Shown piece after piece: positions 18,994-45,049 of a stretch of DNA of 45,360 nucleotides. The stretch lies in contig CALLJF010000033.1 of the NCBI GenBank assembly GCA_938091495.1, forward strand, positions 1 to 45,360. The letters run 5' to 3'. Source of the stretch: an uncultured Nitrososphaerales archaeon (GTDB lineage: Archaea; Thermoproteota; Nitrososphaeria; Nitrososphaerales; JACAEJ01). Below the pieces are notes generated by a model. The model saw nothing but the letters and a program-made list of their open reading frames with translations. It was not told the origin of the DNA and did not search any database. Numbering within the stretch: position 1 is the stretch's first letter; each line of letters begins with the position of its first letter. The position numbers and the translations under genes were made by a program.

Positions 18994-19698
18994 GTGAACA
19001 AATACTTAGAGATAAAGACTAGACTATCATCGATAGAAATTCTTAGGCTTATGAAAGAGGAGCATTCTTATGAAGAATTATCATCTCTGTTAGGACTTTC
19101 AGCACCAATACTAAGTAGGTATATTAATGGTCATGTCCTTCCAAGCTTAGAAAGATCAGGTAGGATCACAGAAGCCTTCAAAGAACAACTAACCACGCTT
19201 ATAAAGAGTAGGATAAAATTTGAGGATGGGAGAATATTCGACCACTCAGAAGTGCTCTACAACCCTAACCTTCTTGACAAGATAGGCAAGTTGGCTTTAC
19301 ACGAATTTAGTTCTATGAAAGTGGATAAAGTGCTTACCGTTGAAACTGATGGCATACCATTGGCTGTTCAAGTTAGCAGAGAATTCGGTGTGAATTTTGT
19401 TGTTGCAAAGAATAGGAAGGAGATGGGCATAAAAGATTTCATAGAAGTAAAGAGAGTCTTCAGCTCAGGGGCTTACTCCTACCTATTCGTACCTAAACGC
19501 TCTATAGAGCAAGGTGAGCACGTATTGATAGTCGATGATGCCGTGAGAACAGGATTTACTTTAGAGACTCTTTTGGAGATTTGTAAAAAGTGTGGAGCAG
19601 AGCCTGTAGGAATCTTTGCTATAATCTGCTTTGAGGATACTTTGAACAGATTAAGGCAGAGAATAAATTATCCGATGAAGGTCTTGGTGAGCATTTGA
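18994..19698 (+). CDS. HTH-phosphoribosyltransferase regulator (GfcR/PurR-like)
   Basis: A 234-residue protein with an N-terminal XRE-like helix-turn-helix (about 22-52, SYEELSSLLGLSAPILSRYI) fused to a type I phosphoribosyltransferase fold. The PRPP-binding loop is VLIVDDAVRTGFT (near 175-187). The layout is that of archaeal GfcR-like regulators and parallels bacterial PurR, which uses a dead PRTase domain to sense PRPP. The start is GTG. It lies just upstream of the purine operon and of a perfect palindrome at 19701-19724, so it is the prime candidate for purine control. Catalytic activity as an orotate- or adenine-type PRTase cannot be excluded. Confidence 0.8.
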   Translation: MNKYLEIKTRLSSIEILRLMKEEHSYEELSSLLGLSAPILSRYINGHVLPSLERSGRITEAFKEQLTTLIKSRIKFEDGRIFDHSEVLYNPNLLDKIGKLALHEFSSMKVDKVLTVETDGIPLAVQVSREFGVNFVVAKNRKEMGIKDFIEVKRVFSSGAYSYLFVPKRSIEQGEHVLIVDDAVRTGFTLETLLEICKKCGAEPVGIFAIICFEDTLNRLRQRINYPMKVLVSI

Positions 19699-19700
19699 AT

Positions 19701-19724
19701 TTTTTAACATAATTATGTTAAAAA
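19701..19724. promoter_or_regulatory. Perfect 24-bp palindrome, candidate operator of the purine operon
   Basis: The half-site TTTTTAACATAA is followed directly by its exact reverse complement TTATGTTAAAAA, with no spacer. It lies right after the stop of the HTH-PRTase gene and about 20 bases before a TATA-like run (ATATTTATATAAAC, about 19743-19756). It could be the regulator's binding site, or the terminator hairpin of the regulator gene; the absence of a loop and of a T-tract favours a protein-binding site. Confidence 0.55.
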
Positions 19725-19742
19725 TCTTATATATCATAAGAG

Positions 19743-19756
19743 AATATTTATATAAA
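19743..19756 (+). promoter_or_regulatory. TATA box of the purine operon
   Basis: The run ATATTTATATAAAC is the best TATA-like sequence between the regulator and purS. It predicts a transcription start near 19775-19782 and a leader of about 65-70 bases. Confidence 0.45.
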
Positions 19757-19845
19757 CAAACACTACAACCCTTCTATAGAGAGCGTAATGATCTTATCTT
19801 CCATGATCAAGGTCTATCTTTTTGAAATATTTTATGGTGAAGGAT

Positions 19846-20112
19846 ATGAGGACTTACCTTGTTAAAGTGGTTATAGAGAATAAGGCAAGTGCCAGAGACC
19901 CTGAGGGAGAAACCATTCTAAAGGACCTTTTGATAAAAGGTGGTTATAAAAAAATCAAGGCGGTAAGAACAGCGAAGTTATTGAAGATTTGGGTCGAGGC
20001 TGAGAACGATAAAGAAGCAAAAGAGATGGTGTCAAAGCTATGCAACGAGTTGAGAATCTATAATCCTGTGGCTCACACATGCTCCATAAATGCAAAGGAG
20101 AATAAAAATTGA
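19846..20112 (+). CDS. purS: FGAM synthase subunit PurS
   Basis: Small subunit of the three-part FGAM synthase (PurS-PurQ-PurL), which bridges the glutaminase and the synthetase. The start ATG at 19846 is preferred over TTG 19822 and ATG 19834 because GGTGA lies just upstream and MRTYLVKVVIENK matches the usual PurS N-terminus. That gives 88 residues, the normal size. Family features are ARDPEGETI and VRTAKLLKIWVEAE. It overlaps purQ by four bases (TTGA) and is the first gene of the operon. Confidence 0.9.
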   Translation: MRTYLVKVVIENKASARDPEGETILKDLLIKGGYKKIKAVRTAKLLKIWVEAENDKEAKEMVSKLCNELRIYNPVAHTCSINAKENKN

Positions 20113-20813
20113 GAGTAGCAATAATTCAGTTCCCAGGTAGCAACTGTGATTTTGATACCCTTCATGTTTTAAATAAAGTTATGAATGTCAGAGCAAATCT
20201 TGTATGGCATAAGTGTGATGATCTTAAAGATTACGATGCAGTTATACTACCAGGAGGATTCTCTTATGGTGATAGACTAAGAGCAGGAATCATAGCAGCC
20301 TATAGCCCTGTCATGAGAGAAGTGAGAAGAATGGCGAAGGATGGTTATCCTATACTTGGAATATGTAATGGTTTTCAGATACTGATAGAATCTGGCTTAC
20401 TCCCAGGGGCATTGCTAAGAAATTCATCTCTAAAGTTCATCTGTAAATGGGTGAACCTTTCTGTTATTAGCAATAAAGCCATCTTCACTCATAAAATCAA
20501 GAAGAATCATTTGCTAAGAATGCCCATAGCCCATAACGAAGGAAGATACTTCATAGAGGAAGATGACCTTAAAGAACTCTACAAAAGAGATCAGATAGTA
20601 CTCAAGTATGCTGATGAGCATGGCAAGATTAGTGAAAGATCAAACCCGAATGGCTCGATAGATAACATAGCAGGTATATGTAATTATGAAGGTAATGTCT
20701 TTGGTCTGATGCCGCATCCTGAAAGAGCATCTGAAAAGTTGTTAAGCCCTTTTGATAGCGATGATGGGAAAATGATCTTCTCGTCCATGATTGAATATGC
20801 AAAGGAGAGGTGA
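20109..20813 (+). CDS. purQ: FGAM synthase glutaminase subunit PurQ
   Basis: Class I glutamine amidotransferase that feeds ammonia to PurL. The nucleophile Cys is in LGICNGFQIL (near 87), and the catalytic His/Glu pair is in LMPHPER (near 200). MPIAHNEGRYF is a PurQ-specific region. At 234 residues it is a normal length. The start is TTG overlapping the purS stop (TTGA), and its own stop overlaps the purL start (GTGA), a sign of translational coupling. Confidence 0.95.
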   Translation: MRVAIIQFPGSNCDFDTLHVLNKVMNVRANLVWHKCDDLKDYDAVILPGGFSYGDRLRAGIIAAYSPVMREVRRMAKDGYPILGICNGFQILIESGLLPGALLRNSSLKFICKWVNLSVISNKAIFTHKIKKNHLLRMPIAHNEGRYFIEEDDLKELYKRDQIVLKYADEHGKISERSNPNGSIDNIAGICNYEGNVFGLMPHPERASEKLLSPFDSDDGKMIFSSMIEYAKER

Positions 20814-23800
20814 ATTCGTTGGTTGCACTAAACTCAATCTTAGTGGAATTGACTGAAGATGAGATAAGAGAAGCAAAAAGAATGCTGGGTAGAGAACCTA
20901 ACAATTTAGAGCTAGCTATGATAGATGCAGAGTGGTCAGAGCATTGTAGCTATAAGTCATCAAAGCCTGTTTTAAAGCAATTGCCAACAAAAGGACCTAG
21001 AGTGATAATAGGACCTGGCTATGATGCTGGAGTTGTAGACGTTGGTGATGGTTACGTAGTAACTTTGCATATAGAGAGTCATAATCATCCATCTGCCATA
21101 GACCCTTATGGGGGGGCAGCAACAGGGATAGGAGGAGTTTTAAGAGATATTCTTTGCATGGGTACGAGGCCTATAGCTTTACTGGATTCTCTTAGGTTTG
21201 GTAACATAGAAGAGAGCACTCACTCTAGATGGCTCTTTAAGCATGTCGTGAGAGGTATAAGCGATTATGGTAATTGTATTGAAGGGAAAGAATATGTCTA
21301 CATTAGCAACTCAGGCGATTTTATCGTACAGAAGTTTGAAGATTTATTTAATAATTTTATGAATTCAAATAAAGTAACTGTTGAATTCGCTGAGAAAGAT
21401 AAAGTCATTTTAAAGCCAAAAATTGATCTTTATGCTCTCTCATACGATTTTAAAAATGGAAAAACCGGCTTTGCTAAGGTAAATAGGTTATACCGCAGAC
21501 GTGTCCACAAACTAATCCGAATAAAGACTACCATGGGTCGTGGATTAAATGTAACTCCTGATCATCCAGTAGTTTTGTTCAAAGATGGGCATGTTATAAT
21601 AAAGCCAGCAAGGCAAATCATGCCTGGTGATCAAATACCTATACTTTGTGATCTTCCTAATAGCAACTTAGAAGATGCCCCTCTAACTATTGATATTATC
21701 GAGGAATTAGTCATCCACGGGCTTGTAAAGGAGATAAGTGTGAGACCTAAGGGAAGATCATTCAAGGATTATAAGATTGAATTAATCCCGCTTCTTAAAA
21801 AAATCGGAGTGAAATCTAATGTTTGGTGCAATTATTTCAAGTATAATTATATGCCTTTAAGCATTTACTTAGAGGTAGAAAAGCTAAGTAAAGATATTCC
21901 CATTAAACGTGCTGATCTCTTGCTTTACCCTAAAAGGGGAAGAATTAACCCAATTCCAAGCAATATATCTGTCACGAGAGATCTAGCTAGATTAATAGGA
22001 TATTACTTATCAGAAGGTTGTCAAAGCAAGGATGTGGATGAGAAAGGGGCAACTTCTAGAATAATATGGACTTTCAAAAAGGACGAAACTGAGTATATCA
22101 ATAACATATGTACTACTCTTGATAAGATGGGAATAAGATACTCTGTAAGACAGAATTCTCTTACAACGATGCAAATCAGAGTATCCTCAAAAATTCTTGG
22201 ATTCTTACTTCAAAAAGTACTAAAATGTGGTTGGGATTCTTACTCAATGCGAATCCCAACCCTTTTCTTTAAGGATTCAAAACTTCTTGAAGATGTACTC
22301 ATTGGAATACTTAGAGGAGACGCCCATGTAAAGACTGGACAAAATCAGTCGACCATTACACTATCTTACTCAACTGTGAGCGGGACTCTTTTCCATCAAC
22401 TACTATTAATATTACAAGCCTTTGGTTACGTGCCTGAGTGTTACATATCATATCATGAAAAGTCGACGGTTCCACTCTTCAATCTTGAAATACATGGTGC
22501 TGAATATTTGGGCAAAATTAAGGACTATTTCAGCACACCGATTAAAGGGAGAATTCGAGTTAGACTTCAGAATTATAGTCATCCTGAATATGCTGGCTAT
22601 AGGCATACTAAGTTTGACAGTTTTGCTATCGTGAAAGTAGTGAGAACTGAAGAATTAACGGGGGAATTTGACGTATACAACATGGAAGTCAATGGAACGA
22701 ATCTTTATGTCACTTCAACAGCGATAATTACACATAACTGTGTTGGAGTTCCAACAGTTGCAGGAGAAGTTGAGTTTGATGATTGTTTTGAGAGAAATTG
22801 TCTAGTTGATGTAGTTTGCTTAGGACTCGGAAAGATTAATGATCTTGTATTAGCAGAGGCGAAGCATCCTAATGATAGTGTAATCCTAGTTGGTGGGAGC
22901 ACAGGAAGAGACGGGATTCATGGTGTAACCTTTGCATCCAGAGTTTTAACTGAAAAGTCTGATGACGAGAGATCAGCGGTTCAAATCCCTGATCCATTCA
23001 TGAAGAAGTTGATTATAGAAGCAACTCTAGAGGCTATTGCTACAGGTCATGTGAGAGGGCTTAAGGATTTGGGAGGAGGAGGGCTAACTTGTGGATTGTC
23101 GGAGATGGCAGACAAAGGAGGATGTGGAATAGACTTAGAGTTATCAAGAGTTCATTTACGTGAGAAGGATCTTAGTCCAATAGAGATAATGATATCAGAG
23201 TCTCAAGAGAGAATGGTCTTTATAATCGAGCAAGGTCATGAAAAAGAAGTATGTGAAATCTTCGATAAATATGAATTGCCTTACAGCATCATAGGAAAGG
23301 TTACTGATAGTGGTAAATTGATCGTAAAGATGAATGGATCAGAGTTAGCCAGCCTTCCTGCCAAGGTAGTGGCAAATGCACCCATAATATATAGAAAGGC
23401 AGTTGAGCCAAATTACATAAAGAAGATAAGAATCGTAGAAAAACCATCATTACCATCAAATCTCTCATCGGTTTTATTAAAGATGCTAAGTTGCCCAAGC
23501 ATAGCAAGTAAGAGTTGGGTTTATGAACAGTATGATCATGAGGTAGGAATAAGAACTGTAGTGAAGCCAGGTCAAGGAGACGCTTCAGTGCTAAGGCTGC
23601 CCAATGGAACATTCTTAGCTATAAAGGCTGATGGGAATAGCAAGCATTGTTATATTGATCCTTATAATGGCTCAGCAGGATGCTTATCTGAGGCATGCAG
23701 AAATCTAGTATCTGTAGGAGCAGAGCCTTTAGCCTTTGTAGATCATCTTCAATTTGGCAATCCAGGAAATTCTGAAGTATTTTGGACTTTCAAAGAATCT

Positions 23801-24502
23801 GTTAGAGGATTAGCAGATTACTCTAAAGCCATAGGTTTGCCATGTATAGGTGGTAAGGTTAGCTTTTACAATGAAGATAAGGTGAAGAATATGGCCATAA
23901 AGCCATCGCCAGTCATAGCAGCCATAGGAAGGATAGAAAAGCAAGAATGGATTATAACTATGAACTTCAAGCATTATGGTAATCATATCGTAATTTTAGG
24001 CGAAACGAAGTCAGAGATGGGTGGTTCAGAGTACTATGAGTATATTCATGGCTTAACTGGAGGAATAGCACCAAGAATTGATTTTGATAAAGAAAAGGCA
24101 ACTATGCACGCTGTTTTAGAAGCTATAAGAAAAGGGCTTGTCAAAACTGTTCACGATGTATCGAAAGGAGGAATAGCAGTAGCCTTGGCAGAGATGTGTA
24201 TATCTGGAAGCATTGGTGCATCCATTGATTGCACAAAAATTCCTGCTCATGATCTGAGAATAGATGAACTTCTCTTCTCAGAGACTCATTCTAGGTTCGT
24301 AATAGAAACCGATGACGCTAATATTGATGAATTTTTGAGCATTATGAAAAAAGCTGGTATTGCATACAATATTATTGGCAAGGTTGGAGGAGATGCTTTG
24401 AAATTTAACAAAAATAAGGAAGAATTGATGTCAATACCTCTATCAGATTTAAAGGATAGTTGGTTAAATTCAATTCCTAAATTTATGGGTGATAGTGAAT
24501 GA
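20810..24502 (+). CDS. purL: FGAM synthase large subunit PurL with embedded intein
   Basis: A 1230-residue precursor. Residues 1-155 and 644-1230 form a 742-residue PurL, normal for the small archaeal/Gram-positive type. The extein has EWSEHCSYKSSK (active-site His45), HIESHNHPSAIDPYGG, and KDLGGGGLTCGLSEMA in the AIRS-type domains. It converts FGAR, ATP and ammonia to FGAM. Residues 156-643 are an intein inserted in the conserved DYGN/CVGVPTVAGE segment, so activity requires splicing. The start is GTG overlapping purQ; a TTG at 20819 is an alternative. Its stop overlaps the purF start (ATGA). Confidence 0.95.
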   Translation: MNSLVALNSILVELTEDEIREAKRMLGREPNNLELAMIDAEWSEHCSYKSSKPVLKQLPTKGPRVIIGPGYDAGVVDVGDGYVVTLHIESHNHPSAIDPYGGAATGIGGVLRDILCMGTRPIALLDSLRFGNIEESTHSRWLFKHVVRGISDYGNCIEGKEYVYISNSGDFIVQKFEDLFNNFMNSNKVTVEFAEKDKVILKPKIDLYALSYDFKNGKTGFAKVNRLYRRRVHKLIRIKTTMGRGLNVTPDHPVVLFKDGHVIIKPARQIMPGDQIPILCDLPNSNLEDAPLTIDIIEELVIHGLVKEISVRPKGRSFKDYKIELIPLLKKIGVKSNVWCNYFKYNYMPLSIYLEVEKLSKDIPIKRADLLLYPKRGRINPIPSNISVTRDLARLIGYYLSEGCQSKDVDEKGATSRIIWTFKKDETEYINNICTTLDKMGIRYSVRQNSLTTMQIRVSSKILGFLLQKVLKCGWDSYSMRIPTLFFKDSKLLEDVLIGILRGDAHVKTGQNQSTITLSYSTVSGTLFHQLLLILQAFGYVPECYISYHEKSTVPLFNLEIHGAEYLGKIKDYFSTPIKGRIRVRLQNYSHPEYAGYRHTKFDSFAIVKVVRTEELTGEFDVYNMEVNGTNLYVTSTAIITHNCVGVPTVAGEVEFDDCFERNCLVDVVCLGLGKINDLVLAEAKHPNDSVILVGGSTGRDGIHGVTFASRVLTEKSDDERSAVQIPDPFMKKLIIEATLEAIATGHVRGLKDLGGGGLTCGLSEMADKGGCGIDLELSRVHLREKDLSPIEIMISESQERMVFIIEQGHEKEVCEIFDKYELPYSIIGKVTDSGKLIVKMNGSELASLPAKVVANAPIIYRKAVEPNYIKKIRIVEKPSLPSNLSSVLLKMLSCPSIASKSWVYEQYDHEVGIRTVVKPGQGDASVLRLPNGTFLAIKADGNSKHCYIDPYNGSAGCLSEACRNLVSVGAEPLAFVDHLQFGNPGNSEVFWTFKESVRGLADYSKAIGLPCIGGKVSFYNEDKVKNMAIKPSPVIAAIGRIEKQEWIITMNFKHYGNHIVILGETKSEMGGSEYYEYIHGLTGGIAPRIDFDKEKATMHAVLEAIRKGLVKTVHDVSKGGIAVALAEMCISGSIGASIDCTKIPAHDLRIDELLFSETHSRFVIETDDANIDEFLSIMKKAGIAYNIIGKVGGDALKFNKNKEELMSIPLSDLKDSWLNSIPKFMGDSE
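21275..22738 (+). other. PurL intein (488 residues) with LAGLIDADG endonuclease domain
   Basis: Begins with Cys (CIEGKEYVYI, block A) and ends with His-Asn (AIITHN) before a Cys +1 extein residue, the class 1 intein layout. Block B is NVTPDHPVVL, with the Thr-x-x-His motif. LAGLIDADG-like helices are LARLIGYYLSEG (block C) and DVLIGILRGDAH (block E). Block F is VYNMEVNGTNLYVT. Length and motifs indicate a full bifunctional intein: splicing plus a homing endonuclease that still has both acidic residues (E of LSEG, D of RGDA). Removing it restores an uninterrupted PurL sequence at GN/CVG. Confidence 0.93.
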
Positions 24503-25926
24503 GAGAGAAATGTGGGGTAATTGGCGCTTATTCCTTTGATGATTTTGATGTATCACAATTTTTGGTTAGAGGCCTTGAAAGCCTTCAGCATAGGGGTCAA
24601 GAATCGTGGGGGATAGCTGTATTTGGGCACGCTGTCTTTAAGAAACTCGGCTTGGTCTTAGAAGACCCTGAAGATGCTTATAATATTGAGAGGATGAAAG
24701 GAAATGTTGGAATTGGTCATGTCCGCTATTCAACTAAAGGTAGAACTGCCATAGAAAATGCTCATCCTATAGAGATAGGAAAGTCTTTTTTCATATCCCA
24801 TAATGGTACAATAGCAAATGCTGATGAATTGATGAATAAAATTTCGAAGGAAAATAGCATCTCAAGCTCAGTTACAGATACAGAATTGGTTGGTATCAGG
24901 CTCAAACAAATATACCATCAGCATAAGGATTGGTCAACTTCCTTTGAAATTTTGAGCAAAGAGTTGAGTGGTTCCTACTCAATGGCGATGTTGACCGAAA
25001 ATGGAGAGCTTTTGGTAGCAAGAGATGGGAGAGGCTTTAGACCTCTTTGTATAGGCTACCATAAAGAAACAAAAACTTATCTAATGGCTTCAGAGAGCTG
25101 TGTATTTGATTCTCTTGGAGCAGATTTGATAAGAGATGTAAAGCCTGGCGAATTAATTAAGATAGATAAGAACGGTCTCTCAACTTACATGTTTTGCAAT
25201 GAAGAAAGGCATGCCCACTGCCCCTTTGAATACACATATTTCTCTCATCCTGGCTCATACCTAGAGGGAATCAACGTATATCTTGCTAGGAAAAGGATTG
25301 GAGTTGAGTTGGCCAAGAAGTATCGATTGGAAGGAGATGTAGTAATACCCGTCCCAGACTCAGCGAGGCCTGCTGCCCAAGGATTTTCAGCAGAATCGAA
25401 GATTCCTTTTGAAGAGGGTTTGATGAAAGATAGGTATAGAAAGAGGGGTAGCTTGAGAAGCTTCATAGAGCCCTTTCAGAAGAGAAGAGAAGAGATAGTA
25501 AAGAAGATCAGCTCTGTGAAGGCTATTGTAAAAGATAAGAATGTAATAGTAGTTGATGATAGCATAGTGAGGGGCACTAGCTCATTGATAATCGCAGATA
25601 TATTAAAGAAGGCAGGGGTAAGAAAGATAAGTTTCGTAATAACATTTCCACCAATAAGATATCCTTGTTATGCTGGCATAGACTTCCCTACTCAAGAAGA
25701 GCTCATCGCTTATAGATTTTGTAAAGATAAAACCGATTTAAATCACATCAATGAAATGGTTGCCTTTGCCTTGAACGTAGACTTCGTTGGTTACAACGAT
25801 GTGGAGGGATTGTGTAAGGGCATAGGTCTGTCTAGTAACGAATTTTGTCTCTCATGTGTTTCAGGAAATTACTCTTGCCTCAAATGCATCCCTAAGTTTA
25901 GAAGTAGAGAGGAGATGAAGAGATAG
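24499..25926 (+). CDS. purF: Amidophosphoribosyltransferase PurF
   Basis: First committed enzyme of purine synthesis; makes phosphoribosylamine from PRPP and glutamine. It begins MREKCGVIGAY, so a four-residue propeptide probably precedes the N-terminal nucleophile Cys5. Ntn glutaminase motifs are LQHRGQESWG and GHVRYSTKG. The PRPP loop is VIVVDDSIVRGTSS. Cysteines RYPCYAGID and FCLSCVSG near the C-terminus fit the structural [4Fe-4S] cluster of B. subtilis-type PurF. At 475 residues it has normal length. It overlaps purL by four bases. Confidence 0.95.
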   Translation: MREKCGVIGAYSFDDFDVSQFLVRGLESLQHRGQESWGIAVFGHAVFKKLGLVLEDPEDAYNIERMKGNVGIGHVRYSTKGRTAIENAHPIEIGKSFFISHNGTIANADELMNKISKENSISSSVTDTELVGIRLKQIYHQHKDWSTSFEILSKELSGSYSMAMLTENGELLVARDGRGFRPLCIGYHKETKTYLMASESCVFDSLGADLIRDVKPGELIKIDKNGLSTYMFCNEERHAHCPFEYTYFSHPGSYLEGINVYLARKRIGVELAKKYRLEGDVVIPVPDSARPAAQGFSAESKIPFEEGLMKDRYRKRGSLRSFIEPFQKRREEIVKKISSVKAIVKDKNVIVVDDSIVRGTSSLIIADILKKAGVRKISFVITFPPIRYPCYAGIDFPTQEELIAYRFCKDKTDLNHINEMVAFALNVDFVGYNDVEGLCKGIGLSSNEFCLSCVSGNYSCLKCIPKFRSREEMKR

Positions 25927-26076
25927 TTGGCTGGAATCTTTGGTTTTTATGCTTTTAGTGAAGGGAAGGAGAACTCTGCAAAGAAATTGGATGCTATCCA
26001 TTTTTCAACTAAAGTAAAGTCTAGACTCAAAGGAATGTCGCCTATAATTATCAGTAGGCTTATTCGATCGAAATGA
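25927..26076 (+). CDS. Short ORF, possible remnant of a glutamine amidotransferase
   Basis: A 49-codon frame beginning TTG immediately after the purF stop and overlapping the purD ATG (ATGA). The first residues, LAGIFGFYAFSEG, resemble the N-terminus of class II (Ntn) amidotransferases but lack the nucleophile Cys. The rest (KKLDAIHFSTKVKSRLKG) is not recognisable. The tight spacing suggests it is translated or was once part of the operon. It could be a small protein, a leftover of a duplicated purF-like gene, or chance. Confidence 0.35.
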   Translation: MAGIFGFYAFSEGKENSAKKLDAIHFSTKVKSRLKGMSPIIISRLIRSK

Positions 26077-27671
26077 GCAAGACTTTAGTTGTTGATGCTG
26101 GTGGGAGGGGACATGCTTTATGCTCCCATCTAGCTAGAAGTCGAGAAGTAAAGGAAGTTATTTGGGTTCCTGGTAATGCAGGTGTAGCTTATGATCAAAC
26201 TGGGAAAATACGAAGAGTAATTTTTTCAGAAAAGAAAGATCCGCTAGACGAGATTTGTGAGATTGCAGCTAAAGAAGGAATCGAACTTGCAGTAATTGGA
26301 CAGGAGAAGTATTTGAGATATGGTTTAAGAGATAAACTCGAAGAAGTAGGAGTGAAAACTGTTGGTCCAAAGCAGAAATCGACAATATTAGAAGCAGACA
26401 AAGCATGGACTAAGCAATATCTTAAGAGAATTGGAGTTGATGTACCAGAATTTGTGATCTTTGAGCAAGCTGACGAAGCCATCGATTGGGTTAGTAAATG
26501 GTATAAAGAAAATTCAAAGCCATTGGCAATTAAGGCTAGCGGGCTTGCTGAAGGAAAAGGAACAAGAGTCTGTTGGAACTATGAACAAGCAAGATGTTGG
26601 ATAGAAACCTTAATGGTTGGGGACCCTTTAACAAAAACTTATCAACCAAGGTTTGGCGATGCTGGAAAGAAAATCGTAGTTGAAGAAGGATTGGTTGGAA
26701 AAGATTGGATAGAGATCGCTTACTTTGCTTTAATTGATGAAAAAGGATTTGCATTACCTTTTGGTACGGCTTATGAAGACAAGAGAGCTTTTGATGGGAA
26801 CGAAAATTGTCTGAAGGATTGGAATTTACTCTACACTTTATACAGAAGATGGGATAAACAAAAACCTCCGAATTATTATAGAATACTTTCTATTCTCCGA
26901 GAGTTAACCATCAATCCTAATACTGGTGGAATGATTTGTATTGCCCCTCATCCTTTACTTGATGAAAAATTGAATAAAAAGATAATGAAAGAATTTGTTG
27001 AACCTGTTGTGAGGAATTGTGAAGATTATGATATTCCAAGGTTCCAAGGAGTTCTCTATTTACAATTGATGTTCAATATTCGCACATGTGAAGCAAAAGT
27101 TTTAGAGATCAATGTGAGACATGGTGATATAGAAGCTCAAGTAATTTTGGAGAGACTAGAATCTGAACTCTTCCCTTATCTTAAAGCTTGTGTCGATGGA
27201 AATTTAGCTAAAATGGAAAAATTAAGCTGGAAGCAGGAGTGGAGTTATGGAATTGCTTTGGTTAGTGGCAGTAGTCAAGATAAGGATTTGGGAAAAGAGA
27301 TTAAATCAAAAGCTGAGTTAACTGAAGACATAGCAATGGAAGGTTATGAGGCGAAAAAAGACTGGAATATCGGTTATCCATACGTTCATTTAACTAATCA
27401 ACCTATCGATGGTTTAGAAAAAATAAAAGATGTGAAGATTTATCATAATGGCACAGAGATTATAAATGGAAAACTTTTATCAACCGGAGGAAGAGTTTTA
27501 ACTTTGGTTTATACTTCACCAAATTTTGAAGAAGCTAAAAGAAAAGTTGATGAGGCAGCAGAATCTATTCAATTTTCAACGAAGCGTTACAGAAGAGAAC
27601 CCATTCCTAAAGATAAACTTGATGTGCTTTTACCAAAACTTTATCAATTTCCCCACAATACCATCCCATAA
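26073..27671 (+). CDS. purD: Phosphoribosylamine-glycine ligase PurD, divergent long form
   Basis: ATP-grasp enzyme joining phosphoribosylamine and glycine to GAR. Family features are [15 protein letters not shown] at the N-terminus, [14 protein letters not shown] (nucleotide-binding), NPNTGGM and [13 protein letters not shown] (metal-binding; usually NVRFGDPE). At 532 residues it is about 100 longer than usual PurD. An obvious insertion lies between [13 protein letters not shown] and NPNTGGM, where the canonical enzyme has only a few residues (here about 45). It lies between purF and purE in the operon, which supports the assignment. The sequence is unusual enough that it may come from another lineage. 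Confidence 0.88.
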
Positions 27672-27700
27672 CAAAAGTGAATTGTTTAAGAGTAAAAGAG

Positions 27701-28141
27701 ATGATTGAAATGGAAGTTGCAGTAATAGCAGGCAGCAAATCCGATCAAAAGGTTTTAGATGAAGTATGCGAAATTCTAAAAGATTTTCAAGTTAAATATG
27801 ATGCTAAGATTTTGTCAGCCCATAGAAATCGCGAAGAATTGGAGGATTACATAACGAATTCAAAGGCAGATTTATTCATAGCCATAGCAGGATTAGCTGC
27901 CCATCTACCAGGCTTCATAGCATCTATAACTACAAAGCCAGTCATCGGAGTTCCAGTTTCAGCAAAGCTTGGGGGGCTCGATGCATTATTATCGATAGTA
28001 CAAATGCCATCGAAAGTTCCAGTTGCCTGTGTTGGAATTGACAATGGTAAGAACGCTGCCTTATTAGCAATAGAGATACTTAGCATAAAGAATCCCGAAC
28101 TAAAAGAGAAATTGTCTAATTATAGACGTGGTAATTTATGA
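27701..28141 (+). CDS. purE: Phosphoribosylaminoimidazole carboxylase/mutase PurE
   Basis: Small AIR-carboxylation enzyme. Motifs: [11 protein letters not shown] at the N-terminus, [22 protein letters not shown] and [20 protein letters not shown]. The ATG at 27701 is chosen because the PurE fold starts at [12 protein letters not shown]; a GTG at 27677 and an ATG at 27710 are also in frame. No purK is in this window, so it is unclear whether it acts as N5-CAIR mutase (class I, needing PurK elsewhere) or as a direct carboxylase; [12 protein letters not shown] resembles archaeal forms. It overlaps purC by four bases. Confidence 0.92.
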
Positions 28142-28977
28142 GTGAAGAAGGAAAGCTATTGAGAAAAGGCAAGGTCAAAGACATATACGATATTGGTAAT
28201 GATAGATTACTTTTTGTGTTTAGCGATAGAATATCAGCCTTTGACGTAATTCTCCCATCTTTCATACCAAATAAAGGAGAGATACTTTGCAAGTTCTCAG
28301 AGTTCTGGTTCAATAAGCTAAACATTTCAAATCATATGATCAAAGTTATAGACAAGAATAAAATGGTGGTGAAGAAGCTTTCCATGATTCCTATAGAATG
28401 TGTTGTTAGAGGATACTTGTATGGCAGTTTATACGATAGATTGATGAAAGGAGAAGTGAAGTTAGACATTAGACCAGAACTGGCTTGTAAACTCCCAAAT
28501 CCTTTTTTTGATCCGACTACAAAATCTATGGAGAAGGATTTACCCATATCTAAAAGCGAAATCTTATCAAAGAACTTGCTTAAGAAAGAAGAGTTATCAT
28601 GGATAGAAAAGACTAGTATAGAACTTTACAACAAAATGGCTGAAAGATGTGAAGACGCTGGATTCATAATGGCAGATGTCAAGTTCGAGTTTGGTAAAGA
28701 TGATGATAAAATTCTATTGGCAGATTCTTTAGGTCCTGATGAGTTCAGGCTCTGGCCAAAGGAAAAGTATTCTATAGGAAAGACTCAAGAAAGCTATGAC
28801 AAGCAATTGGTAAGAGATTGGTTGATAAGTGTTGGTTTTAAGAAGGATTTAGATGAGGCTGTTAAGAAAGGTAATCCATTACCTAAGCCTCCAAAATTGC
28901 CAGATGAACTAATATCTGAAACTAAAAAGAGATACATCACAGCTTTTGAAAGGATAACTGGTTTGAAATTTAATTGA
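28138..28977 (+). CDS. purC: SAICAR synthetase PurC
   Basis: Condenses CAIR with aspartate. The 279-residue protein has [20 protein letters not shown] at the N-terminus, the typical DRISAFDV region, [13 protein letters not shown], and [13 protein letters not shown] near the C-terminus. The length is intermediate between the short (~235) and long (~300) forms and is normal for archaea/eukaryote-like PurC. Translational coupling with purE (ATGA) and with purM (TTGA) is visible. No oddities. Confidence 0.95.
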
Positions 28978-28982
28978 TAAAC

Positions 28983-30026
28983 ATGAAAAGACTAACATAC
29001 GCTAAGGCTGGCGTCGATCTAGATGAAGTAAGCAAAATACGCAAGGACATTGTTAGGCAACTTCATGGCACTCTAAATCTAAGAGAAGGCAAGTTTGGAA
29101 GACCCTTGATAGAGATAGGGCATTATGCTGGAATGATAGATATTGGTGATAGAGCATTAACGGTTCATGCTGATGGTGTAGGCACAAAGGTTCTCATGGC
29201 TCAGATGATGGACAAGTATGATACTATAGGAATTGATTGCATAGCCATGAATGTCAATGACCTAATATGCTTAGGATCAGAACCAATAGCTCTAATTGAT
29301 TATCTAGCCCTTGAGAAGCCTAATAGAAAAATTGTAAAGGATATAATGAGAGGTCTTGCTAAAGGAGCAAAAGAAGCTCAGATTTCGATAGTTGCTGGTG
29401 AGACGGCAATAATGCCAGATGTAATAAAAGGAGTTAATGGCAAAGGCTTTGATCTCGTTGGCTTATCAATCGGTGTTGTAGATAAGGATAAAGTAATAGA
29501 TGGAAAGAATCTAAAGCATGGCGATATAGTAATAGGCGTTAATAGCTCAGGAATCCATTCTAATGGCTTATCTCTTGCAAGGAAGGCATTACTTCAAAGA
29601 TATAGAATTGATGAATTCATACCAGAGCTTGGGAAGAGCCTTGGAGAAGAGCTATTGGCTCCAACGAGAATCTATGTAAAGCCCGTTCTTGAAATATTGA
29701 AAGAGTGTGAAATACATGGATTAGCCCATATAACTGGTGGAGCTTTCTCGAAGCTCAGAAGATTATTAATAAAGCCAAGGATAGGCTTCTTACTCGATAA
29801 TATGCCTGAACCTTTGCCAATATTCCAGCTGATCCAAAAAGAAGGCAGTATTACTAATAAAGAGATGTATAGAACTTTTAACATGGGCATAGGCTTCTGT
29901 GTTTGTTCACCAAAGAATGAAGAGGATAGAATAGTTAAAATACTAGCGAAACATGGCATGGTGGCAAGAACCATAGGTAAAATCGTTGAAAAGCCTGGAG
30001 TAATTGTAAGGGGTATTAGTTTATGA
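28983..30026 (+). CDS. purM: AIR synthetase PurM
   Basis: Cyclises FGAM to AIR with ATP. Characteristic PurM segments are TYAKAGVDLDEV at the N-terminus, VHADGVGTKVLMA, CIAMNVNDLICLGSEP and VAGETAIMPDV, and the C-terminal HITGGAF and FNMGIGF. The ATG at 28983 is preferred, although TTG at 28974 overlaps the purC stop and is possible. The length, about 347 residues, is normal. It overlaps the next gene by four bases. Confidence 0.95.
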   Translation: MKRLTYAKAGVDLDEVSKIRKDIVRQLHGTLNLREGKFGRPLIEIGHYAGMIDIGDRALTVHADGVGTKVLMAQMMDKYDTIGIDCIAMNVNDLICLGSEPIALIDYLALEKPNRKIVKDIMRGLAKGAKEAQISIVAGETAIMPDVIKGVNGKGFDLVGLSIGVVDKDKVIDGKNLKHGDIVIGVNSSGIHSNGLSLARKALLQRYRIDEFIPELGKSLGEELLAPTRIYVKPVLEILKECEIHGLAHITGGAFSKLRRLLIKPRIGFLLDNMPEPLPIFQLIQKEGSITNKEMYRTFNMGIGFCVCSPKNEEDRIVKILAKHGMVARTIGKIVEKPGVIVRGISL

Positions 30027-31399
30027 TAAAAAGAGAAGAGATGCAAGAATTGGCTAAAAGGTACAAAGAGCCTGTAGAGCTTATATTGGGTTCTCACTCT
30101 GCTTTAGATGCTGCATCAGGGGCTAGAAACTACGGATTTAGAAGAATCGTCTACACAACGAAAGGAAGAGCCATCATATACTTGCAGAATCCAATATTGG
30201 GCAAAGCTGGGGAAGTGGTAGAGGATTTACCTAAACATGCTAGGGAAGAAATGATTTGTGTATACGATCCGAAGGAATTGAAGAAAAAAGGGGATTGGAA
30301 GACAGCTTTGGTAATCTTTGATAATTATCCTGACATTTACAAGTATTTGGATGAATTTCTAGATCTGGAGTGCCTTCAAGTACCAAACAGAGCTTTTTCT
30401 GTATACTTAGGAGGGGATGAGCGTTGCAGCAAAATAGAGAAAGAATTTTCAATACCAATAGCAGGATCAAGAAAGCTATTGAAGATAGAGAACAGAGGAG
30501 AAATTGAGAGAGATTACTACTGGTTCGCAGAAAAAGCAGGCATACCTTATCCTAAATTCTATGATTTTGATGTTCATAGGAAGGGAATAAGATTCAAGGA
30601 ATTCGTTGATGAGCCCATGGTATTGAAATGTGAGCATGCAAAGAGAGAGCTTGAGAGAGAGTTCATATTCGCTTCTGACAGCAATGATCTTGAAGAGAAA
30701 GTAAAAGCAGAGATGGAACTTGGGAATGTAAATGAGGAAGGATTAAGAAGGGCAAGAGTTGAGCAGATAGTATTAGGTCCTCATGCCAACTTTAACTTCT
30801 TCCTATCACCAATAGATGCAGAGGAGGAATGGGGAGATGTTGATGATTTTTACTCTGAACTTTACGATATGAATCTGGATAAAGCAAGATTTTGCTTAGC
30901 GAACGAACTCCTTTCTATAGATGAGAGAAGAGAGACAATTTTGGATGGTTTGAAGAGATTGCCTATAGATGTTCAACAGAAGATAAAGAAGGTACCATCC
31001 TTTGAAGTTACGTGCCATATCGCCATGAGCCTAAGAGAATCTTTGTTAAAAGACGTTCATAAAGTTGCCAATGCTTTCCTTCTAGCAACAAAAGAGTATG
31101 AACCCCCAGGGATAATTGGAGCTTGGTGCCTTCAAACACTGATAACTTGGGGAAAAGTTCCAGGAAAAGCCATAGAGTATGGTTTGTACGATGTTCCTCC
31201 TGGAGAGGATGTTTATGCCCATATTCCAGTAACTCAGGACGTTGCAACGAGGCATGGTGGAGGGACTAACGTGCATATGGGAATAGGTTCTCAGTATGCG
31301 AACGCAAAACACAATAAGAGAATGAGCACCGGGGATAGAATAGCCTTAGAGATAAAGAGAGCATTGAACTTAAGAAAATTAGATAAGATAGTCACATAA
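30023..31399 (+). CDS. purP: FAICAR synthetase PurP (formate-dependent)
   Basis: Archaeal ATP-grasp ligase that formylates AICAR with formate and ATP in place of bacterial PurH. LGSHSALDAASGARNYGF near residues 22-39 is the PurP N-terminal signature, and GGGTNVHMGIGSQYANAK and MSTGDRIALEIKRA are at the C-terminus. At 458 residues it is about 100 longer than the common 340-370. The extra length lies mainly in the central part (about 225-310), rich in charged residues. It is the last gene of the operon. Its presence indicates IMP synthesis via free formate. Confidence 0.9.
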   Translation: MIKREEMQELAKRYKEPVELILGSHSALDAASGARNYGFRRIVYTTKGRAIIYLQNPILGKAGEVVEDLPKHAREEMICVYDPKELKKKGDWKTALVIFDNYPDIYKYLDEFLDLECLQVPNRAFSVYLGGDERCSKIEKEFSIPIAGSRKLLKIENRGEIERDYYWFAEKAGIPYPKFYDFDVHRKGIRFKEFVDEPMVLKCEHAKRELEREFIFASDSNDLEEKVKAEMELGNVNEEGLRRARVEQIVLGPHANFNFFLSPIDAEEEWGDVDDFYSELYDMNLDKARFCLANELLSIDERRETILDGLKRLPIDVQQKIKKVPSFEVTCHIAMSLRESLLKDVHKVANAFLLATKEYEPPGIIGAWCLQTLITWGKVPGKAIEYGLYDVPPGEDVYAHIPVTQDVATRHGGGTNVHMGIGSQYANAKHNKRMSTGDRIALEIKRALNLRKLDKIVT

Positions 31400-32942: not shown

Positions 32943-33125
32943 AATCTTTCCAATAAGGAGTTCATTACCTACTGAAATTATCTCAAATACATCTGATCTC
33001 AGAGATTTAACCCCTATACTATCTTAAAAGATTGCTTTAAATTAGTTTTGGGTTTAAAGAGAGTTTATCGTTAGCATAACAGTAAAGTTGATAGGCATCA
33101 TAAATTAATGTTATCTGGAGGGAGC

Positions 33126-33440
33126 ATGGTGAAGAAAGAATACGTAGTTACAGAAATTTCTGCTGCACCCGACGGAGGGCCTTATGTTCTCGTCGCTCTA
33201 GTTGATCCTAGAGATTTGAAGAGTGCATCCCAACCTCGCCCTAGCGTCGTCATGGGCTTCACATCCATGGAGGATTTGATGAAGGATTTGCAGAGAGCCC
33301 TCTCAGGTTTATCAAGGCAGATGATGGGTGGAGCAGTGACTGTGATAAAGCTTGACATGAGAGAGTATGAAGAATCAGGGTTGAAAGTAGGTGATAAGGT
33401 CTACTTAGAAATTACAAGAACTGAGAAGGAAGGAGTTTAA
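33126..33440 (+). CDS. Conserved archaeal protein of unknown function
   Basis: A protein of about 104 residues with a beta-rich N-terminus (KKEYVVTEISAAPDGGPYVL) and a central helix (TSMEDLMKDLQRALSGLSRQ). It ends with VGDKVYLEITR, which recalls small beta-barrel or translation-related folds, but I do not recognise the family. ATG 33126 is chosen over ATG 33108 because GGAG lies five bases upstream of it. It is monocistronic by spacing (about 100 bases to the next gene). Confidence 0.65.
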   Translation: MVKKEYVVTEISAAPDGGPYVLVALVDPRDLKSASQPRPSVVMGFTSMEDLMKDLQRALSGLSRQMMGGAVTVIKLDMREYEESGLKVGDKVYLEITRTEKEGV

Positions 33441-33538
33441 ACTCCTTTCTAAATCTAATCTTGAGAAAAACCACTAAACAATAAAATCCCCAAATTTATT
33501 GATGCAAAAAGTTATCTTTAAGTTTAAAGTTATAATCC

Positions 33539-44960: not shown

Positions 44961-44982
44961 TTTAACAAGAATATTATGTTAT
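44961..44982. promoter_or_regulatory. Imperfect palindrome upstream of prs, weak match to the purine palindrome
   Basis: TTTAACA (44961-44967) and TATGTTA (44975-44981) flank a short AT spacer, resembling the half-sites of the palindrome at 19701-19724 in a degenerate form. It lies in the divergent gap between the radical SAM gene and prs. It is suggestive only. Confidence 0.2.
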
Positions 44983-45049
44983 CTGGTCCTTATAGAACTT
45001 TCTAAAGAACGATAAGGAAAAAAGGTAGTATAAATCAACCTTCATAGAT

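Follow-up and report, generated by a model that had tools for sequence, protein, structure and literature searches.

Closest described regulators

To my knowledge, the transcriptional control of purine synthesis in archaea is poorly known, and dedicated purine switches or regulators are largely unknown there. In Halobacterium salinarum, a purine regulator other than TrmB was inferred, but a PurR homologue could not be recognised from sequence (PMC3794607). I found no archaeal purine operator of the kind proposed below described in the open-licence literature.

In Bacillus subtilis, PurR (TIGR01743; PDB 1p4a, 1o57, 7rmw) combines an N-terminal DNA-binding domain with a phosphoribosyltransferase (PRT) domain carrying a PRPP motif, and represses from PurBoxes upstream of the -35 element, with PRPP as the inducer (PMC8789054). 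These boxes are two 14-bp inverted repeats with a CGAA centre, 16–17 bp apart (PMC8789054). An archaeal PRT-type transcription regulator is also known, namely the haloarchaeal GfcR (NF045507; pyrE1/gfcR), encoded by pyrE1, which is an activator (PMC11519228); it possesses an OPRT-like PRT domain, and controls sugar degradation, not purines. For TrmBL1 of Pyrococcus furiosus, a global regulator of another protein family and pathway, the operator is the palindromic TGM (TATCAC-N5-GTGATA). In vitro, repression was seen on nine tested templates whose sites lie 3′ of the promoter elements, and activation on two of three whose sites lie upstream, ahead of BRE/TATA (PMC4706686).

The locus described here lies within a 45,360-nucleotide stretch (hereafter the window) of an archaeal genome (G000; 1.39 Mb in 59 contigs), and includes a 234-residue protein (18994–19698, + strand), hereafter the HTH-PRT protein. 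As in PurR, an N-terminal DNA-binding domain precedes a PRT domain with a PRPP motif, and the proposed target is a purine operon. The PRT effector domain is of the PurR type, with the PRPP loop VLIVDDAVRTGFT aligning with VLIIDDFMKAGGT and the fold matching 1p4a and 7rmw. However, the protein falls below the PurR family cut-off (85.3 bits against 258.7, over residues 60–221 only), and its N-terminus is a Pfam HTH_3 domain, an unrelated HTH outside the PurR-aligned region. The site next to it is a single 18-bp palindrome, TTAACA-N6-TGTTAA, where PurR has paired boxes; the promoter is archaeal, and the regulatory sign is possibly opposite. The protein also misses the GfcR family cut-off (24.1 bits against 300). 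The resemblance to TrmBL1 is limited to a palindromic archaeal operator upstream of BRE/TATA, here one site rather than a global regulon. The best reading is PurR-like logic, with a PRT sensor and a purine operon, but without PurR family membership; the DNA-binding domain and the layout of the operator are not those of PurR, and the sign perhaps is not either.

A long palindrome between the HTH-PRT gene and purS

A first-pass annotation had reported a spacer-less perfect 24-bp dyad at 19701–19724, between an HTH-PRTase regulator and the purine operon, and both the dyad and its placement were confirmed. The sequence TTTTTAACATAATTATGTTAAAAA (no strand assigned) is a perfect palindrome of 12 + 12 bp, beginning right 3′ of the stop codon of the HTH-PRT gene and lying upstream of purS. 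In a palindrome scan it is the longest in the window, with the runner-up at 18 bp. Arms of at least 12 occurred in 1 of 200 matched random windows (second-order Markov), and in 0.03% of shuffles of the AT-rich intergenic region that holds it. The runner-up, AAGGAGTTTAAACTCCTT (33430–33447), is also perfect, and sits at the 3′ end of a small ORF (33108–33440).

Downstream of the dyad, sequence inspection predicts a core promoter for the pur operon, GAATA TTTATATAAA, at 19742–19756 (+ strand), with a TATA-like box at 19747–19756.

Conservation of the dyad and its geometry

The closest named relatives are Nitrososphaeria/Nitrososphaerales MAGs, namely JZ2_bin.220247, DRTY6_bin.138 and L.E.AR.22, with regulator identities of 97%, 82% and 77% respectively, and all three share the order regulator-dyad-promoter-purS-purQ. 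The HTH-PRT gene, the dyad, the core promoter and purS occur together in all four sampled genomes with a close relative of the regulator (G000–G003). Absence of the motif upstream of purS, in relatives that share the regulator, had been named as evidence against a purine circuit, and the opposite was found. The arrangement is known from four genomes of hot-spring archaea, mostly metagenome assemblies, from two genera; the co-occurrence of dyad and regulator is phylogenetically a single event, as all carriers belong to one family. Two further members of this family (G004, G006) keep purSQ and lack the regulator, and no dyad was found before their purS.

The dyad reads TTTTAACATGATCATGTTAAAA in G001, TTTTTAACACAATTGTGTTAAAAA in G002 and TTAACATGATTATGTTAA in G003, the last with one asymmetric position. 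The conserved portion is the inner 18 bp (19704–19721, no strand assigned), the proposed operator core; the outer T/A arms are gone in G003. This core is identical to that of the window at 16 of 18 positions in G002 and 17 of 18 in G003, with 40% and 62% identity, respectively, for the remaining intergenic sequence. Inside the core, two genomes carry mirror-symmetric double substitutions (P ∼3.5e-4 under a simple null model, where the same number of substitutions is scattered at random). In G001, the four central bases change symmetrically from AATT to GATC. The symmetry appears to reflect selection on the DNA, because this change falls in the would-be loop of an RNA hairpin. Judged on sequence, symmetric change even at the central bases would fit the site of a DNA-binding dimer rather than a terminator.

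The distance to the promoter is also conserved. The TATA region (GAATATTT(A/T)-rich) lies 19–20 nt 3′ of the dyad core in all four genomes, and the leader between TATA and purS is strongly divergent in G002. The TATA box begins ∼34 bp 3′ of the core centre, which from the usual archaeal spacing would lie ∼65 bp upstream of the transcription start.

One site per genome

I scanned 400 genomes of the order for TTAACANRATYNTGTTAA. A single match was obtained in each of G000–G003, all at the regulator-purS locus, while the other 396 genomes together gave three matches, the same count as the reversed control. With one copy in each of these four genomes and chance-level counts elsewhere, the motif would be a one-site local operator rather than the mark of a regulon. 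A genome-wide motif search, proposed in the first-pass annotation as a check, gave no support for a wider regulon: the exact core is unique in the window's genome, and with two mismatches allowed the counts were near the reversed control in every genome, with no sign of a regulon found. A motif-defined regulon was rejected on these grounds.

A degenerate copy of the dyad had also been suggested before prs (44961–44982). I rejected it, as its half-site spacing is 9 rather than 6, G001 has a changed left half, and G002 and G003 have no comparable sequence there. Next to it, a block TTATAG(A/G)ACTTTCTAAAGAACGATAAGGAAAAA (44985–45025) is strongly conserved in G000–G002 and partly in G003; it could be a regulatory site, either the prs promoter or something else. 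No dyad was found in the purA upstream regions, no conserved dyad upstream of the regulator gene itself that could serve as an autoregulatory site, and no conserved adjacent dyad at 77 further loci of distant HTH-PRT family members. A palindrome before purS in G011, TTACATAAATATGTAA, was set aside, similar sequences being present elsewhere in that genome at a near-chance level. For the PurR-like archaeal circuit first suggested, the dyad in all four genomes and the closeness of the PRT domain to PurR in the PDB are in favour, while the prs copy and any wider regulon are not supported.

The HTH-PRT protein and its family

The HTH-PRT protein is a full member of NCBIfam NF006328/PRK08558 (251 bits against a cut-off of 184, residues 1–233), and both Pfam HTH_3 and Pribosyltran score above their cut-offs. 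In the AlphaFold (AF2) model (pLDDT 92), the N-terminal HTH_3 domain is well folded, and the PRT domain matches structures of APRT, XPRT and PurR; the best PDB sequence match of this domain is B. subtilis PurR. The PRPP loop is intact and has the same key residues in 36 family members. Several further PRT-domain genes are present in the window's genome.

Members of the family are spread widely among archaea (Nitrososphaeria, Bathyarchaeota, Thermococcus, haloarchaea), but most others lack an adjacent purine operon or dyad: relatives lie mostly apart from purine genes and are dyad-free, and proteins of ∼45% identity occur in other contexts. I found no report of a DNA-binding role for this family in the open-licence literature. 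In three genomes of family f11 of the order (G047, G054 and G060), the HTH-PRT gene is present and purQ is not detectable; the protein has another role there, perhaps in salvage. Because relatives occur in other contexts without the dyad, some in genomes without detectable purQ, the family may consist mainly of enzymes.

In a Thermoprotei MAG (L087, 1–4678), purC and two tandem purF-like genes point away from the HTH-PRT gene, in divergent orientation, which independently hints at a tie between the family and purine synthesis. The intergenic region was considered as the same operator and rejected; it contains AT-rich repeats, but the motif is different.

Proposed mechanism and alternatives

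I infer that the dyad is probably the operator of the adjacent HTH-PRT protein, which would bind it as a dimer, sense PRPP and control the pur promoter, more likely by activation. In a homodimer, one HTH_3 recognition helix would contact TTAACA and the other TGTTAA, with about one helical turn between them. Once bound, the homodimer would control the single promoter from which purSQLF and the purine genes beyond are transcribed. The PRT domain would most likely sense PRPP, or a competing purine nucleotide, so that operon output would track precursor supply and purine demand. Activation through aid to TBP/TFB recruitment would be the more likely mode, with repression as the alternative sign; activation is favoured because the site precedes the BRE/TATA region by a constant ∼20 nt. 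The TrmBL1 templates and the precedent of GfcR as an activator point the same way. Position by itself is compatible with either sign, since B. subtilis PurR represses from upstream of -35.

The same operator and regulator could instead form a classic PurR-type repressor, with transcription blocked by a dimer, in its apo or nucleotide-bound form, until PRPP releases it. This has in its favour that the PRT domain is closest to that of B. subtilis PurR, a PRPP-induced repressor with boxes just upstream of the promoter (PMC8789054). I nevertheless regard it as somewhat unlikely: the dyad lies clear of BRE, TATA and the predicted start, archaeal sites so placed usually activate, and the fixed TATA spacing suggests contact with the basal machinery. 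There is also a single dyad, with no tandem pair for spreading.

A distinctly less likely possibility is that the dyad is the operator of another, unlinked transcription factor, with the HTH-PRT neighbour coincidental. The linkage of dyad and regulator in one lineage only, and the distant HTH-PRT relatives with no such dyad nearby, would be expected in that case. However, the dyad and the regulator are present or missing together among genomes of the same family, and a single copy per genome agrees with a linked regulator acting locally. An 18-bp dyad with a 6-bp centre is also well suited to an HTH_3 dimer, going by the operators of this fold.

That the palindrome is an RNA element, a terminator or hairpin ending the regulator mRNA 3′, is very improbable. 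A weak AU-rich hairpin could form (-7 kcal/mol, z ∼ -2.8), and the palindrome directly follows the stop codon and opens with a six-T run. But the layout is T5-stem-A5 on either strand, which leaves no U-run after the stem whichever way it is read; the symmetric substitution in G001 reaches pairs within the would-be 4-nt loop; the T-run is lost in G003 while the core is kept; and the spacing is tied to the next promoter. An Rfam search of the region gave nothing above the gathering score, the best being a below-threshold mir-1302 match to the palindrome; neither an intrinsic terminator (stem plus U-run) nor a known structured RNA family was recognised here. The 5′ leader folded no better than shuffles. 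The terminator, put forward in the first-pass annotation as the finding that would overturn an operator, is thus disfavoured, by the T5-stem-A5 layout of both strands and by symmetric change extending to the centre.

The last alternative, a purine salvage phosphoribosyltransferase beside a chance palindrome, agrees with the NF006328 title (adenine phosphoribosyltransferase) and the intact catalytic-type PRPP loop, but can hardly be sustained against symmetric conservation of the dyad in four genomes with diverged flanks, which speaks strongly against chance, and a well folded N-terminal HTH_3 domain. On its sequence, the HTH-PRT protein could be both enzyme and regulator.

If the dyad is indeed the landing site of the HTH-PRT regulator, the locus would represent a dedicated purine-synthesis switch in archaea, and it suggests that a phosphoribosyltransferase fold was recruited as an archaeal purine regulator with a different DNA-binding domain. 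Tentatively, HTH_3 and a purine PRT may have been joined independently of PurR into a dedicated purine-operon regulator, a PRPP-gated activator acting through one operator; this would be a convergent PurR of opposite sign, possibly still a salvage enzyme. The locus is open to direct testing, since it names the protein and supplies its 18-bp site together with a promoter at a conserved geometry.

The leader and the pur operon

A possible upstream ORF of 25 codons (MILSSMIKVYLFEIFYGEGYEDLPC; 19788–19865, + strand) overlaps the purS start, and a leader peptide or translational coupling is possible. Short leader ORFs in G001 and G003 have a similar peptide start, M[IV]LSxM; none is seen in G002, where the corresponding ATG is in frame with purS.

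All genes of the operon are on the + strand. purS (19846–20112; Pfam PF02700, 68 bits) is followed by purQ (20109–20813; TIGR01737, 328 bits), purL (20810–24502) and purF (24499–25926; TIGR01134, 362 bits, above cut-off), and then by nearly contiguous purD-like, purE-like, purC-like, purM-like and purP/DUF1297-like ORFs (26073–31399), recognised from the ORF list. Apart from purS, purQ, purF and the regulator, the genes were identified by inspection. No good match to IMP dehydrogenase (PF00478) was found in G000–G003 (best ∼26 bits), and purA is encoded in all four.

An intein-like insert interrupts purL in frame between ...DYGN and CVGVPTVAGEV...; it was read by eye from the translation, with the flanking halves matched in relatives. 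In the three relatives examined, these flanking parts are adjacent and insert-free.

The gap between purF and purD (25927–26072) opens with a reading frame that looks like the beginning of another PurF-like protein (AGIFGFYAFSEGK...). In G002, G003, G004 and G006, a second PRT-domain ORF of ∼440 residues lies directly 3′ of purF. G000 may thus retain, in this gap, the remnant of a lost paralogue.
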